Assembly (NCBI RefSeq): GCF_039523335.1
Contig: NZ_BAAAFC010000001.1
Coordinates: 1,550,001 to 1,614,000 of the forward strand
Source: Marinobacter szutsaonensis
GTDB taxonomy: Bacteria > Pseudomonadota > Gammaproteobacteria > Pseudomonadales > Oleiphilaceae
Direction: 5' to 3'
DNA: 64,000 nt
A program made the position numbers and the translations under genes. Below are positions 8,099-57,311 of this stretch, one piece after another (the stretch's first letter is position 1; each line of letters begins with the position of its first letter). Under the pieces are notes generated by a model. It was not told the origin of the DNA. It worked only from the letters and a program-made list of their open reading frames with translations, and did no database searches.

Positions 8099-8210
8099 GG
8101 CCGGAGCCCGGTCCCACCTCCCGGGAACCGCTACGAGCACGTCCATGTGCGCTTGTTTCAGGCCATCCCTGGCCTTCAACATTCCCGGGAGGTGGGACCG
8201 GGCTCCGGCC
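8099..8210 (+). repeat. 54-nt-core inverted repeat element, copy A
   Basis: Perfect 29-bp arms (8099-8127 and 8182-8210) enclose a 54-nt core (8128-8181). The core contains two small hairpins, GCACGT/ATGTGC and GGCCA/TGGCC. The same core recurs at 57237-57290 and, reversed, at 12608-12661, with different arm sequences. It starts 10 bases beyond the astC stop codon and precedes aruF, so it would form a strong stem in the aru transcript, possibly separating expression of astC from the downstream genes. Confidence 0.9.
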
Positions 8211-8219
8211 TACTGTGGT

Positions 8220-9434
8220 TCAGGCCGTCAACTTCTCAACTGCTCTTTCGAAGCGCTCCAACGCTTCTTCGATATCCTGATCCGGGATAATCAGTGACGG
8301 CGCCAAACGGACTACGTTTCCACCGGCGACCAGCACCATCACTCCTTCATCCAGACCCGCGTTCAGGAAGTCCTTGGCCTTGCCCTGCCATTTTTCGGTC
8401 AGCACGCAACCAAGCAGCAGGCCGGCGCCGCGGACTTCGCTGAAGATTCCATAACGCTCGCCGATGTCCATCATGCCTTTGCGGAGTTTGTCGGAACGGG
8501 CTTTAACGCCCTTGAGGATCTCCGGCTGGCTGATGGTGTCGACGACTTTCTGGGCCACGGCACAGGCCAGAGCGTTGCCGCCGTAGGTGCTGCCGTGGGT
8601 GCCGACGCCCAGGCTGGCGGCGACTTTGGCGGTGGTGAGCATGGCTGCCACCGGGAAGCCGCCGCCCAGGCTTTTGGCGCTGGAGAGGATGTCCGGGACG
8701 ACGTCGTACATTTCGTAGGCGTATAGGTGGCCGGTGCGGCCGACGCCGGTCTGAACTTCGTCGAATACCAGCAAGGCGTCGTTTTCGTCGCACAGTTCGC
8801 GCAGACCTTTGAGGAATTCAGGATCTGCGGGCATGACGCCGCCTTCGCCCTGGATTGGCTCAACCACGACGGCGCAGGTTTTCTCTTTGGAGATCAGGGC
8901 CTTTACCGAATCCAGATTGTTGTACTCGGCGTGATGGATGCCGCCCGGGGCCGGCTCGAAGCCTTCCAGGTATTTGGGCTGGCCGCCGACGCTGACGGTG
9001 AACAGGGTGCGGCCGTGGAAGGAGTTGGTGAACGAGATGATTTCGTTCTTTTCCGGGCCGTAGTGTTCCCAGGCATAGCGACGGGCCAGTTTGAAGGCGG
9101 CTTCGTTGGCTTCGCCGCCGGAATTGGCGAAGAATACCCTTTCGGCGAAGGTGAGATCGCACAACGTCCTGGCCAGGCGCAGGGCCGGTTCGTTGGTCAT
9201 GACGTTGGACAGGTGCCAGATTTTTTCGGCCTGTTCCTGCAGTGCGCCGATGAGCCCGGGGTGGGAGTGGCCGAGACAGGTTACGGCGATGCCACCCTGG
9301 AGGTCCACGAACTCTCGACCTTCCTGGTCCCAGATGCGGGAGCCTTCACCGCGCACCGGGATGATGCTTCCGGGGGCGTAGTTGGGCACCATGACTTCAT
9401 CAAACAGTTCGCGGGAAACGGGCTCTTTGTTCAT
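8220..9434 (-). CDS. astC: acetylornithine/succinylornithine aminotransferase
   Basis: A 404-residue class III PLP-dependent aminotransferase. In this operon it should convert N-succinylornithine to succinylglutamate semialdehyde; members of the family also act on acetylornithine in arginine synthesis. The PLP lysine is in [15 protein letters not shown] after the aspartate motif [15 protein letters not shown]. The N-terminus ([21 protein letters not shown]) is typical. It is the first gene of the aru-type operon (order astC-aruF-aruG-astD-astB as in Pseudomonas aruCFGDB) and is followed by a large inverted repeat before aruF. A dyad in its upstream region could be an operator. Confidence 0.95.
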
Positions 9435-9485
9435 AAATCTCTCTCAGCGGGATCCAAACCTTAAACATAGCAGGCAATGTTTCAG

Positions 9486-9504
9486 ATTCGCACTAGGTAC
9501 GAAT
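9486..9504. promoter_or_regulatory. operator-like dyad upstream of astC
   Basis: The 19-bp stretch has the symmetric pattern ATTCG-n-AC-n3-GT-n-CGAAT, seven matched pairs, located about 52-70 bases upstream of the astC start. Its position suits control of the arginine operon. I do not recognise it as a textbook ArgR box, so the regulator is undefined. Confidence 0.3.
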
Positions 9505-9528
9505 GCGGACAATTTCATAATACGCCAC

Positions 9529-10980
9529 TCAGGGCATAAGAACATCCGGTATGCCGGTGGACGGCAGTTCGATCAGGCGCGGCGAGTTACCGCCTCGCCC
9601 GAGGAGTGTCTTGACCAGCAGTTTGTACGAATCGAGGTCAAAGGTCACGGCCTGGCCGCGCAGGGAGAGGTCGTGCAGTTCGTCTTCGTGGTGGACAGTG
9701 GCGACGTGTATCCAGTTGTAGACCACCAGGATGTCCGTCCGCCCGGTCTTCTCGTTACGCTCGACAATGCCGACCGGCCCCTGCCAGGGCCAGGTTGTCA
9801 GGCGCAGACCATGGAAGGCGATCTGCATCCGCAGGTTGTAGCGAACGACATCCTCCTCCCCTTCACAGGCGCCCTTGCACCGGCCGAGGGTGCGCTGGAA
9901 GCAGGCGCCTTCGTGCTCGGGCTCCAGGCCCAGCAGCTGGTTGCAGAGCTCGTTTTTGGCCGCGATGTCGCTGAGCGCGCGTTCTGCGTCCCGCTTGCTG
10001 CGGAACAGTCCGAAATAGTCCCCGAGCCGGTGCGGTTCGATTGCCCGAACCAGCCGGGCCTGCAGGTAGCCGGTCTCGTTGGTGGTCAGCTCGATGCTAA
10101 CCAGGTTCTTCGCTGCCCGGGAGCGACGGTTGAACATGGGCTTGAGGGTCTTGATCTGCTTCAGCTCGAGTAGCAGTGCCCCCAACTCTCCGGCGGTCTC
10201 CGTCCACTCCACACGCCGCAGGCTTTCCGACATCCGTACGCCACGGCTGGAGTTGTGGTCCCCGGAAAAGTGGGAGGCGACACGTTGGGCAATGTTGGTG
10301 CTCTTGCCCACGTAGAGCAGCACATCGTTCTCACCGTAGAACCGGTACACGCCCGGTACCCGCGGCAACTCATCCATGATGCCCGGCGGCAGGTTCGAGG
10401 GTACGCTGGGCTTCTGCAGCAACTCCCGGATGGCGTTCTCCATGGATTCGGCACCATGCTCGTTCCGGGCATGTTCGAAAAACGCCAACATCGCCGACAC
10501 GTCTCCCATCGCCCGGTGCCGCTGCACCTCCGCGAGGCCATGACGGGCAATCAGCGCATCCATGTTGTGGCGCCGGAATTCCGGATACAGCCTTCTGGAG
10601 AGCTTCACCGTGCATAGCACCCGTGCCGAAAACATCCTGCCCAGCCGCCGGAACTCGGATTTAATGAAGCCGTAATCAAAGCGTGCGTTGTGGGCCACAA
10701 ACACACAGTCTTTCAACTGCGCTTCCAGCTCATCGGCCACCTCCCCGAACAACGGCGCCCGGGCCACCATCTCATTACTGATGCCGGTAAGCCGTTCAAT
10801 AAAGGAGGAAATCCGGGTTTCCGGATTCAGCAGCGTCTGCCACTCCCCGACCACTTCTCCCGACCGCCAGAACCGGATACCAATTTCCGTAATGCGGTCA
10901 TGGGACGAATTGCCCCCGGTGGTTTCGATATCCAGGAAGGCAAAGGTGTTGTCTGCAAGGCATGTACTTTGGGAGGTCAT
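9529..10980 (-). CDS. DnaQ-like 3'-5' exonuclease fused to a GIY-YIG (UvrC-type) nuclease domain
   Basis: A 483-residue two-nuclease protein. Residues about 12-180 form a DEDD exonuclease: FLDIETTGG (D17, E19), HNARFDYGFI and HRAMGDVSAM hold the metal ligands. Residues about 200-285 form a GIY-YIG endonuclease (GVYRFYGENDVLLYVGKS, then RVASHFSG and the glutamate in LLLELKQIKTLKPMFN), as in UvrC and Cho. The C-terminal 190 residues contain CFQRTLGRCKGAC, a possible metal-binding Cys pattern also seen after the GIY-YIG domain of related proteins. The role is probably DNA repair, but the true substrate of this fusion class is not settled. The gene stands alone, divergent from the porin gene. Confidence 0.9.
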   Translation of the reverse strand: MTSQSTCLADNTFAFLDIETTGGNSSHDRITEIGIRFWRSGEVVGEWQTLLNPETRISSFIERLTGISNEMVARAPLFGEVADELEAQLKDCVFVAHNARFDYGFIKSEFRRLGRMFSARVLCTVKLSRRLYPEFRRHNMDALIARHGLAEVQRHRAMGDVSAMLAFFEHARNEHGAESMENAIRELLQKPSVPSNLPPGIMDELPRVPGVYRFYGENDVLLYVGKSTNIAQRVASHFSGDHNSSRGVRMSESLRRVEWTETAGELGALLLELKQIKTLKPMFNRRSRAAKNLVSIELTTNETGYLQARLVRAIEPHRLGDYFGLFRSKRDAERALSDIAAKNELCNQLLGLEPEHEGACFQRTLGRCKGACEGEEDVVRYNLRMQIAFHGLRLTTWPWQGPVGIVERNEKTGRTDILVVYNWIHVATVHHEDELHDLSLRGQAVTFDLDSYKLLVKTLLGRGGNSPRLIELPSTGIPDVLMP

Positions 10981-11045
10981 TGCTCACCATTACGACGAAA
11001 GGTCAACTGCAGATGTCTGTATATCAACGAAAATCGACTATAGAC

Positions 11046-11068
11046 ATTCGTCTAAATAATCGACGAAT
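11046..11068. promoter_or_regulatory. dyad upstream of the porin gene
   Basis: ATTCGTC (11046-11052) and GACGAAT (11062-11068) form a perfect 7-bp dyad around an AT-rich spacer, about 75 bases before the porin start. It could be a regulator site for the porin or for the divergent nuclease gene. No regulator can be named. Confidence 0.3.
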
Positions 11069-56981: not shown

Positions 56982-56992
56982 GGCTTGTATCC

Positions 56993-57091
56993 TCATCGAG
57001 TGGCGGATAAGTTCGTCACGAACAGGAACGCAAGCGCAAATTCAGGTCGCAAAAAAGCGAGAGGGAGTAGAGACTCCGTCCCGCTTTTCAT
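56993..57091 (-). CDS. candidate 32-codon carA leader peptide
   Basis: An ATG at 57091 opens a frame reading [18 protein letters not shown] and on to a TGA (56995-56993) that overlaps an in-frame ATG of carA. The frame runs straight through the attenuator-like hairpin at 57051-57088, including its U-tract, as pyrL does in the E. coli pyrBI leader. The peptide is hydrophobic and the codons over the hairpin are pyrimidine-rich. The ribosome-binding site is weak (GAG at about eight bases). Translation is inferred, not shown. It would link ribosome position to termination before carA. Confidence 0.45.
57051..57088 (-). terminator. attenuator-like terminator in the carA leader
   Basis: On the minus strand AAAGCG pairs with CGCTTT and GGAGT with ACTCC, with a small internal loop; the stem ends in TTTTTTG. 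It lies after the carA promoter and before its start, so unrelieved it would stop transcription of carAB-greA. Confidence 0.75.
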
Positions 57092-57101
57092 AAAACTCTA
57101 T

Positions 57102-57117
57102 TAGCTTCTCAAAGCTA
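57102..57117 (-). promoter_or_regulatory. carA leader hairpin (possible pause site)
   Basis: TAGCTT and AAGCTA pair perfectly over four bases, between the predicted transcript start and the leader ATG. Such a stem precedes the attenuator in pyrBI-type leaders as a polymerase pause signal; the role here is inferred. Confidence 0.4.
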
Positions 57118-57141
57118 CGCTTGGTGCAGTTAAATCGCCTT

Positions 57142-57170
57142 ATTGTAGGAAATTTGGCGCTTTCTGTCCA
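57142..57170 (-). promoter_or_regulatory. carA promoter
   Basis: TGGACA (57170-57165) and TACAAT (57147-57142) with a 17-bp spacer: five of six consensus bases in each box. The predicted transcript begins near 57135, giving a leader of about 155 bases before the carA start. Confidence 0.7.
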
Positions 57171-57215
57171 CGAGAAATGTCTTCAATCGGGTTAGGCCGA
57201 GAGCCCGGCGGGCGC

Positions 57216-57311
57216 TTGGTATCTCTTTTCCGGGAACCGCTACAAGCACATCCCTGTGCGCTTGTTTCAGGCCATCCCTGGCCTTCAACATTCCCGGAAA
57301 AGAGATACCAA
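57216..57311 (+). repeat. 54-nt-core inverted repeat element, copy B
   Basis: Perfect 21-bp arms (57216-57236 and 57291-57311) around the 54-nt core (57237-57290), with some further pairing outside (GGCGGG/CCCGCC). The core differs from copy A at only a few positions, including changes within GCACATCCCTGTGC. It lies 33 bases 3' of the dapB stop and upstream of the carA promoter, so it probably ends or protects the dapB transcript. Confidence 0.9.

Follow-up and report, generated by a model that had tools for sequence, protein, structure and literature searches.

A high-affinity CsrA/RsmE site is described as an ANGGAX hexaloop placed directly on a stem (PMC4005645). CsrA is reported to bridge sites 10-63 nt apart, its SELEX consensus RUACARGGAUGU has conserved ACA and GGA, and very stable hairpins may be disfavoured by the protein (PMC7652899). 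The sRNAs that sequester CsrA are described as genes that have a promoter and a terminator and carry from several to many GGA sites (PMC5864184, PMC9788540), and a TwoAYGGAY motif was reported in Weinberg 2010 (PMC2864571). The element family found in this study is similar to CsrB/CsrC and RsmX/Y/Z in having more than one A(N)GGAX hairpin loop per molecule and a single-strand fold, but each of its 87 dispersed copies has two sites on a long unique stem. Unlike sRNA genes of the CsrB/RsmZ type, the 84 own copies scanned had no detected promoter or intrinsic terminator, and the Rfam CsrC model scored 5.3 bits at copy 3 of the window against a gathering score of 61. TwoAYGGAY elements sit in hairpin loops. 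Judged from the name, the present element shares the two AYGGAY elements and differs by its long free-sequence stem and dispersed copies; permissive searches of three copies and one long form gave no TwoAYGGAY match, in a library that may lack this family. REP, BIME and REPIN sequences are dispersed intergenic palindromes with inverted pairs, and the stems of REP copies resemble one another in sequence. The present element is also dispersed, intergenic and palindromic with some inverted pairs, but unlike REP it conserves only the tip, and the stems differ (best pair 19/22 bases, mean 11.6/22, among 83 own copies). DNA uptake sequences are motifs of about 10-12 bp, present in many copies and often near gene ends. 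The element resembles them in copy number and in its frequent position near gene ends, but it is a long hairpin, and a link to uptake would be conjectural.

The window analysed here is a 64-kb stretch of the Marinobacter szutsaonensis genome. Three copies with a conserved 54-nt core inside perfect arms of unrelated sequence (29, 26 and 21 bp) had been claimed in the initial annotation, and all three were found in place. The core pattern matched three times in the window against a mean of 0.00 in 100 shuffles, and the folding z-scores of copies 1-3 were -11.2, -10.5 and -9.3. Selection acts on the strand complementary to the one used in the initial annotation: the GGA-reading strand is minus for copies 1 and 3 and plus for copy 2. 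Copy 1 (8099..8210, minus) has perfect 29-bp arms at 8099-8127 and 8182-8210 around a core at 8128-8181, and is located between astC (8220-9434, minus) and an astA/aruF-like ORF (7022-8041, minus). Its loops with closing pairs, both of the form A-N-GGA-X, read CAGGGATG in hairpin 1 (8164..8171, minus) and CATGGACG in hairpin 2 (8140..8147, minus). Copy 2 (12582..12687, plus) has perfect 26-bp arms at 12582-12607 and 12662-12687, a core at 12608-12661, and the loops CAAGGACG (hairpin 1, 12618..12625, plus) and CATGGATG (hairpin 2, 12642..12649, plus). Its 3' tail (12688..12715, plus) contains AAGGCTGGG, a variant of the family tail motif (AGGCTAGG class). Copy 3 (57207..57320, minus) has an inner 21 bp of perfect pairing (57216-57236 and 57291-57311) around a core at 57237-57290, extends to 30-bp arms when mismatches are allowed, and reads CAGGGATG in both hairpin 1 (57273..57280, minus) and hairpin 2 (57249..57256, minus). 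It is located between dapB (57344-58147, minus) and a carA-like ORF (55851-56981, minus). All three copies do lie just 3' of minus-strand genes, as had been claimed, but copy 2 occupies a convergent gap, with a porin-like ORF (11144-12283, plus) on one side and aceF (12739-14391, minus) on the other, where it reads antisense to aceF beyond the aceF stop and sense to the upstream porin-like ORF. Gene names in the window were taken from the initial annotation or from ORF translations read by eye, with no family search, and gene boundaries from a simple custom ORF caller.

A covariance model, as the initial annotation had proposed, was run on the genome and its relatives. It retrieved 87 copies (E <1e-3) from the M. 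szutsaonensis genome, of which 84 had arms of at least 20 bp; two of the remaining three were long forms, which lay beyond the scoring script. When the same genome was searched without regard to arms, an 18-nt core pattern matched exactly at 24 sites, 21 with perfect arms of 17-29 bp, two with imperfect arms (five mismatches in 28 for L013, three in 29 for L021) and one long form with arms (L003). Across the order, the model had matches in 117 of 293 genomes and, with up to 15 candidates scored per genome, in 57 of 118 genera; copies from related genomes are not independent. Five other Marinobacter genomes had 3, 6, 10, 92 and 94 matches, and the core was also matched in Idiomarina aquatica and one Halomonas MAG. 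Plasmid and phage records searched for the core gave no match. In the long forms, the second GGA hairpin is missing. An IS-like insertion in hairpin 2 was considered for them and rejected, the long form being conserved with arms that still pair in most copies inspected (by eye and by MFE folds). Among 150 of 263 flanks, CTCCCAA and AGGCTAGG occurred 3' of the elements at fixed offsets, well above shuffled sequences; 5' motifs also exceeded shuffled sequences, at scattered positions. The initial annotation had no named family for the element, and Rfam gave none at gathering score for the three window copies and one long form. Neither the family nor the composition footprint described below was found in the literature searched. 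The CsrA-type loops, the selected strand, the footprint and the extent of the family are additions to the initial annotation.

The nested hairpins on a long stem were borne out by covariation, and a strand-specific fold was established. In an alignment of 64 of the 69 representatives (five were excluded, as automatic core borders were shifted), changes on both sides were seen at 14 of 14 arm pairs tested, seven of eight pairs of hairpin 1 and two of three of hairpin 2. The covariation score was 0.592 compared to 0.167 when shuffled (reached in 0 of 500) and at most 0.162 when slid. In hairpin 1, the two outer pairs (columns 19-38 and 20-37) did not form in 40 and 48 of the 64 copies; in hairpin 2, support for the lower pairs proposed was weak. 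Further pair types in these copies did not rise above shuffles (138 of 500 reached the count). Arm mismatches read on the GGA strand of 183 copies were G.U 89, G.G 21, G.A 19, A.C 4, U.U 3, C.U 2, A.A 1 and C.C 0; one element scan favoured G.T over other mismatches, which this count did not. The G.U excess had the same sign in all gene-orientation classes, with G.U to A.C counts in own copies of 13:0, 10:1, 8:2 and 5:0 (36:3 in total).

The loops are near-invariant. In 174 copies, retrieved by a pattern that left hairpin 2 outside, A12, G14, G15, A16, A36, G38 and A40 were present in 100% and G39 in 99%, with N variable. The hairpin-1 motif was found in 86 and the hairpin-2 motif in 85 of the 87 own copies; an N-less loop, AGGAC, occurs among the loop types of other families. 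Both tip hairpins carry the ANGGAX hexaloop directly on the stem. Before N-GGA, hairpin 2 has ACA, and hairpin 1, with its GC-rich stem, reads CCA. The best reading, with a probability of roughly 45%, is that the element folds as a single strand, probably RNA, and presents a twin CsrA site. The dispersed elements would then act on the GGA strand as one folded molecule, in which a stem of about 28 bp, free in sequence and kept in pairing, carries a junction and, on it, a pair of short hairpins that both end in an A-N-GGA-X hexaloop, a putative CsrA/RsmE site. The GGA motifs are 24 nt apart, inside the 10-63 nt bridging range, and each copy would therefore dock one CsrA dimer, on a 3'-flank, read-through or antisense transcript. 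With one dimer per copy, some 85 copies would together amount to a CsrA sink spread over the genome, or to an RNP platform at 3' ends. We infer that the elements may be transcribed, bound by CsrA and active as such a sink. A csrA gene was found in 20 of 20 genomes tested, including genomes without element matches, and its presence does not discriminate.

The copies are intergenic, often tens of nucleotides past a stop codon, with convergent gaps enriched and divergent gaps depleted in elements. Their orientation relative to neighbouring genes was random, with 27 of the 87 copies in the same direction as both neighbours and 29 opposite to both, which leaves the proposal of a structured RNA at mRNA ends unsupported in that form. 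Thus, where both neighbours point the same way (56 copies), 29 elements read antisense to the transcript in which they lie. In simple scans, no sigma-70 promoter signal above shuffles was observed in the 110 bp 5' of 84 own copies, and on the GGA strand T5 occurred in the 40 nt 3' of 0 of 84 and terminator-like sites 3' of one of 84. Copies antisense to their own operon are therefore without a known transcript. The random orientation and the composition footprint are not accounted for by the CsrA model. Also to be set against it are the long forms without a second GGA hairpin, the unpaired or weakly supported pairs in hairpins 1 and 2, the CCA of hairpin 1 and the possible disfavour of very stable hairpins.

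Arm pairing is maintained while arm sequence changes, as had been claimed. Between two close species, 340 stem pairs differed at both partners and 63 at a single partner, and the mismatches within changed pairs were mostly G.U, followed by G.A and G.G. At least 67 of the 87 own sites were common to the closest relative; of the 20 unpaired with it, ten had no flank match and ten had a flank match with no scanned element. Neither outcome named as refuting in the initial annotation arose: further copies kept their arm complementarity (84 of 87 with arms of at least 20 bp), and the arms did not prove to be conserved flanking sequence in the comparison with relatives. Changed arm pairs (403 of 1718 positions) correspond to about the fourfold-site rate (0.18-0.32 by bin, 20 sites), changes per site were overdispersed (mean 5.07, variance 18.2), and arm change accompanied divergence of the adjacent flanks. 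Rewriting of arms in single events was dropped, since arm change tracks the flanks and its average, near the fourfold rate, does not require it. As the pairs change at about that rate, an arm-to-arm copying step may still take place. Replacement of arms from another copy of the same genome was rejected, arms not being shared among copies, and no recent whole-element copying is thus seen.

Unpaired copies lie within a strand-oriented footprint: regardless of gene direction, C is increased and G decreased on the GGA strand. The mean GC skew of this strand was -0.111 (0..+500) and -0.096 (-900..-300) for 61 own unpaired copies, -0.106 and -0.074 for 77 copies of named relatives, and -0.129 and -0.046 for 40 of the 115 unpaired copies in a genome of another family (G177), paired copies excluded. 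The skew at first hinted at a replication-strand bias and later proved local; such a bias was rejected, as the strand order of the 115 copies along the complete G177 chromosome was random (396 of 500 shuffles reached the fit). It is rather unlikely, though of some weight, that the element is a strand-specific DNA site, whose hairpin would be the recognition signal for repeated exchange or copying, into the chromosome, of single strands of GGA polarity that derive from the 1-2 kb around it. The exchange envisaged is uptake-, transfer- or repair-like. Mismatch repair recognises C-containing mismatches poorly, C:C most of all, and incoming strands would therefore push sites towards C. Consistent with this are a footprint and a strand-specific pairing that both follow the element and not gene direction, the absence of a detected promoter, and fourfold sites near elements with C up, G down, T somewhat down and G+C little changed. 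Occupied and empty sites were compared, as had been suggested, at loci obtained in only 30 of 37 genomes per site, and the footprint was clear at astC, where fourfold C was 0.61-0.70 in five genomes with the element (about three lineages) and 0.34-0.55 in 25 without. It was weaker elsewhere: aceF differed on one side only (excluding G015, which has the element at a locus that was not oriented), and dapB showed a small shift (excluding the long form of G034). Against the exchange of strands also stand the 200-300 bp immediately 5' of the element, which are spared and not predicted by a simple heteroduplex tract, and a fourfold divergence without clear excess around elements (0.28-0.32 up to 550 bp 5', 0.18-0.20 up to 800 bp 3' and 0.20-0.27 further out, in 20 of 67 site pairs of two species). 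The A(N)GGAX loops are left unaccounted for, the mismatch argument is theoretical, and plasmid and phage records had no core match. The broader view that elements are centres of a recurrent strand-specific process driving neighbouring DNA, coding sequence included, to C is likewise doubtful; single-strand DNA exchange, copying or strand-biased conversion may be the process, with the hairpin kept as a recognition signal.

A selfish or relic REP/MITE-like repeat near gene ends, its fold serving as one-strand substrate for a Y1 (RAYT-type) transposase, would fit the dispersed intergenic placement, the gap preferences, the random orientation, the inverted pairs 145-266 bp apart, the varying match counts among Marinobacter (3-94) and the occurrence in Idiomarina aquatica and the Halomonas MAG. 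This origin is nevertheless improbable. PF01797 was searched in 58 relatives and, unlike for REP/RAYT, the distribution of the element did not correlate with the Y1 transposase; six genomes with 10-17 core matches each (G001, G008, G009, G019, G022, G028) had no PF01797 match. Own copies do not share arms, most sites are common to the closest relative, and only 6 of the 91 own matches listed were below 50 bits, among 150 of 1923 candidates scored, where weak copies were possibly missed. The mobile unit regenerating arm symmetry that had been suggested is without direct support, as the best arms agree at 19 of 22 bases, at least 67 sites are shared and, where changed pairs are mismatched, G.U predominates. 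Termination of transcription or stabilisation of mRNA 3' ends would fit a very stable hairpin that often follows a stop codon, but is very improbable: the hairpin is not followed by a U-tract, keeps its wobble asymmetry where antisense to the host transcript, and has conserved loops that such a role leaves unaccounted for.

In many marine bacteria, the element is present in dozens of copies and combines a conserved tip that resembles a CsrA docking site, a copy-specific matched stem and neighbouring DNA in which one strand tends to be enriched in C. Reaching about 90 copies in some genomes, it is a structure family outside Rfam at the copies tested and outside the literature searched. If the CsrA reading is true, the Csr regulon would include a distributed pool of docking sites. 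If the elements are centres of a strand-specific process, they would be a new kind of genome site across an order, neither a transposon nor an ordinary RNA gene. The footprint matters under either reading and makes a copying or exchange process directly testable. Analyses of substitution and of local codon usage would be biased by an orientation-locked local shift at synonymous sites beside a repeat. The free-sequence stems, in turn, are a natural experiment in compensatory evolution.

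The three hairpin elements described in the initial annotation, each with a conserved 54-nt core inside perfect inverted arms, were confirmed with their coordinates and arms by sequence check, pattern search and folding. In this text they are copy 1 (8099..8210, - strand, astC), copy 2 (12582..12687, + strand, aceF) and copy 3 (57207..57320, with perfect arms within 57216-57311, - strand, dapB) of the window, which is G000:C1:1550001-1614000 of the own genome. The gene names astC, aceF, dapB, carA and porin were taken from the initial annotation or from a reading of translations. 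A minus-strand tRNA-Leu (gag) at 45053-45137 and a minus-strand ribosomal S15 leader RNA (RF00114) at 38644-38765, scoring 39.8 bits against a gathering threshold of 39.5, are further features of the window.

A covariance model was built on aligned elements (64/69 representative copies), and a search of the own and related genomes revealed a family far larger than three copies. The own genome gave 91 matches at E <=1, 87 of them below 1e-3, and the closest relative, G002, gave 92 at E <=0.001. The Marinobacter genomes G004, G012, G029 and G154 had 6, 3, 10 and 94 matches, respectively, and G177, from another family, had at least 141 at E <=1e-5 among 150 candidates scored. Order-wide, with up to 15 candidates scored per genome, matches were found in at least 117 of 293 genomes and at least 57 of 118 genera. 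Among the matches listed, the core was seen in many Marinobacter species, Idiomarina aquatica and one Halomonas MAG; it was absent from the plasmid and phage collections searched. No Rfam family matched any element tested. The copy searches favoured complementary arms, except for a core pattern search blind to the arms. This search gave 24 exact core matches in the own genome, 21 with perfect arms of 17-29 bp, two with imperfect arms and one long form.

The long form retains hairpin 1 and has a conserved multi-hairpin domain in place of hairpin 2, measuring 98-100 nt from the loop to the end of the core. Its arms pair in most copies. The copies of this form are L003:1436-1664 (C1:980941 region of the own genome), L077, L078, L087, L091, L103, L105, L145, L146, L198 and L406/L478. 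No Rfam match was obtained for L003. Position C4:86849 of the own genome resembles the long form and has an identical sequence start.

According to our own gene calls, 86 of the 87 own copies are intergenic. Of 119 copies in relatives whose two neighbours were no more than 1 kb away, 45 occupied convergent and 14 divergent gaps, and the two co-directional orientations accounted for 29 and 31; a background of 335 gaps of at least 110 bp comprised 54 convergent, 91 divergent and 190 co-directional gaps. Inverted element pairs 145-266 bp apart were observed in the own genome and in G177. The stem is followed by a 3' tail motif, CTCCCAA and then AGGCTAGG about 15-18 nt out, as at window 12688-12715. 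Neither promoter nor terminator signals were found at the copies.

Arms of at least 20 bp were present in 84 of the 87 own copies and perfect in 41 of those 84. Each of the 14 arm pairs tested covaried in an alignment of 64 copies, with 99.1% of cells paired. In hairpin 1, 7 of 8 pairs had changed on both sides, yet only 74.6% of its cells were paired, most copies having its outer pairs open. In the short stem of hairpin 2, both sides had changed in 2 of 3 pairs. The covariation score of the whole structure was 0.592 versus 0.167 for shuffled alignments, and the count of further pair types showed no excess over shuffles. At the 67 own sites with an element also in G002, both sides had changed at 340 of 1718 pair positions and one side at 63. 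The double changes comprised 149 possible via G.U, 177 requiring a strand swap or two transversions, and 14 others. Non-standard members of one-sided changes were mostly G.U (41/64), followed by G.A, G.G and A.C. Arms and near flanks diverge together, and the core is retained. Arm mismatches on the GGA strand (the strand whose loops read GGA) in 183 copies were 89 G.U, 21 G.G, 19 G.A, 4 A.C, 3 U.U, 2 C.U, 1 A.A and no C.C. At 24 fixed positions in 224 copies, found by a scan tolerant of G.T, T.G and G.T together numbered 124 versus 9 for A.C and C.A. The excess of G.U over A.C marks out one strand, and the asymmetry pointed the same way in each of the four gene-orientation classes, with small counts.

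The simplified core consensus on the GGA strand is TGTTGRRGGCCANGGAYGGCCYGAAACAAGCGCACANGGAYGTGCTYGTAGCGK. Both hairpin loops are A-N-GGA-X with a C-G closing pair; the A and GGA were kept in 99-100% of 174 copies, retrieved by a pattern that did not include hairpin 2, and N was variable. In copies outside Marinobacter, some loops lacked N (AGGAC) and some had a different closing pair. The high-affinity CsrA/RsmE site is defined as an ANGGAX hexaloop seated directly on a stem (Duss et al., PMC4005645). A review gives a bridging range of 10-63 nt for CsrA sites (PMC7652899), and the GGA spacing of the element is 24 nt. The SELEX consensus for CsrA in the same review has ACA before GGA, which fits hairpin 2 and not hairpin 1; very stable hairpins, it adds, may be poorer binders.

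A composition footprint, with C raised and G lowered on the GGA strand, surrounds the element. GC skew on this strand was negative in 53 of 61 unpaired own copies at 0..+500 and in 52 at -900..-300; corresponding numbers were 65 and 61 of 77 copies in named relatives, and 36 and 26 of 40 in G177. Skew was slightly positive over the 200 bp immediately 5' and weak (0.00 to -0.07) at distances above roughly 800 bp on the 3' side and 1 kb on the 5' side. The footprint was missing over the 200-300 bp immediately 5' of unpaired copies, and over about 500 bp in G177. Its sign was identical whichever way genes run (control coding-strand skew +0.028 with sd 0.089 over the final 500 nt in 531 genes), and it mostly cancelled around 23 own paired copies. 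At fourfold sites of sense genes, C fell from 0.56 at 0-250 bp 3' to 0.41 past 1.2 kb, and G rose from 0.20 to 0.35; antisense genes shifted in the same direction on the GGA strand, more weakly. The footprint differed from copy to copy: left and right lobe skews were -0.133 and -0.197 for copy 1, +0.077 and -0.123 for copy 2, and -0.011 (almost none) and -0.125 for copy 3.

The comparison of occupied and empty sites proposed in the initial annotation revealed composition differences on both sides at astC and dapB and on the gene side at aceF. The scan placed the element in 5 (astC), 13 (dapB) and 14 (aceF) of 30 genomes; G034 additionally carries a long form at dapB, and G015 has at aceF an element missed by this oriented scan. 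Mann-Whitney tests, uncorrected for phylogeny, gave p=1.4e-5 on both gene and far sides at astC, 0.009 and 0.0015 at dapB, and 0.015 and 0.5 at aceF. At astC, fourfold C was 0.61-0.70 in the 5 genomes with the element, approximately three lineages (G000/G002, G018/G035 and the distant G030), versus 0.34-0.55 in the 25 without. Protein identities did not hint at a common horizontal origin. G032, protein-close to G018/G035, had the highest value of the 25 (0.55), as if the element had been lost or the shift were partly shared. The contrast between occupied and empty sites, chiefly at astC, suggests a footprint introduced by the element, or by whatever acts on it, as opposed to a preference of the element for DNA that is already skewed.

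The footprint, the random orientation of the copies and the promoters not being found point to a putative DNA process acting on one strand. The strand-specific fold and the loops suggest a single-stranded, probably RNA, element, putatively docking CsrA. Both readings are kept as candidates from sequence analysis, and the CsrA-type RNA is ranked first because the loops match the published site in detail.
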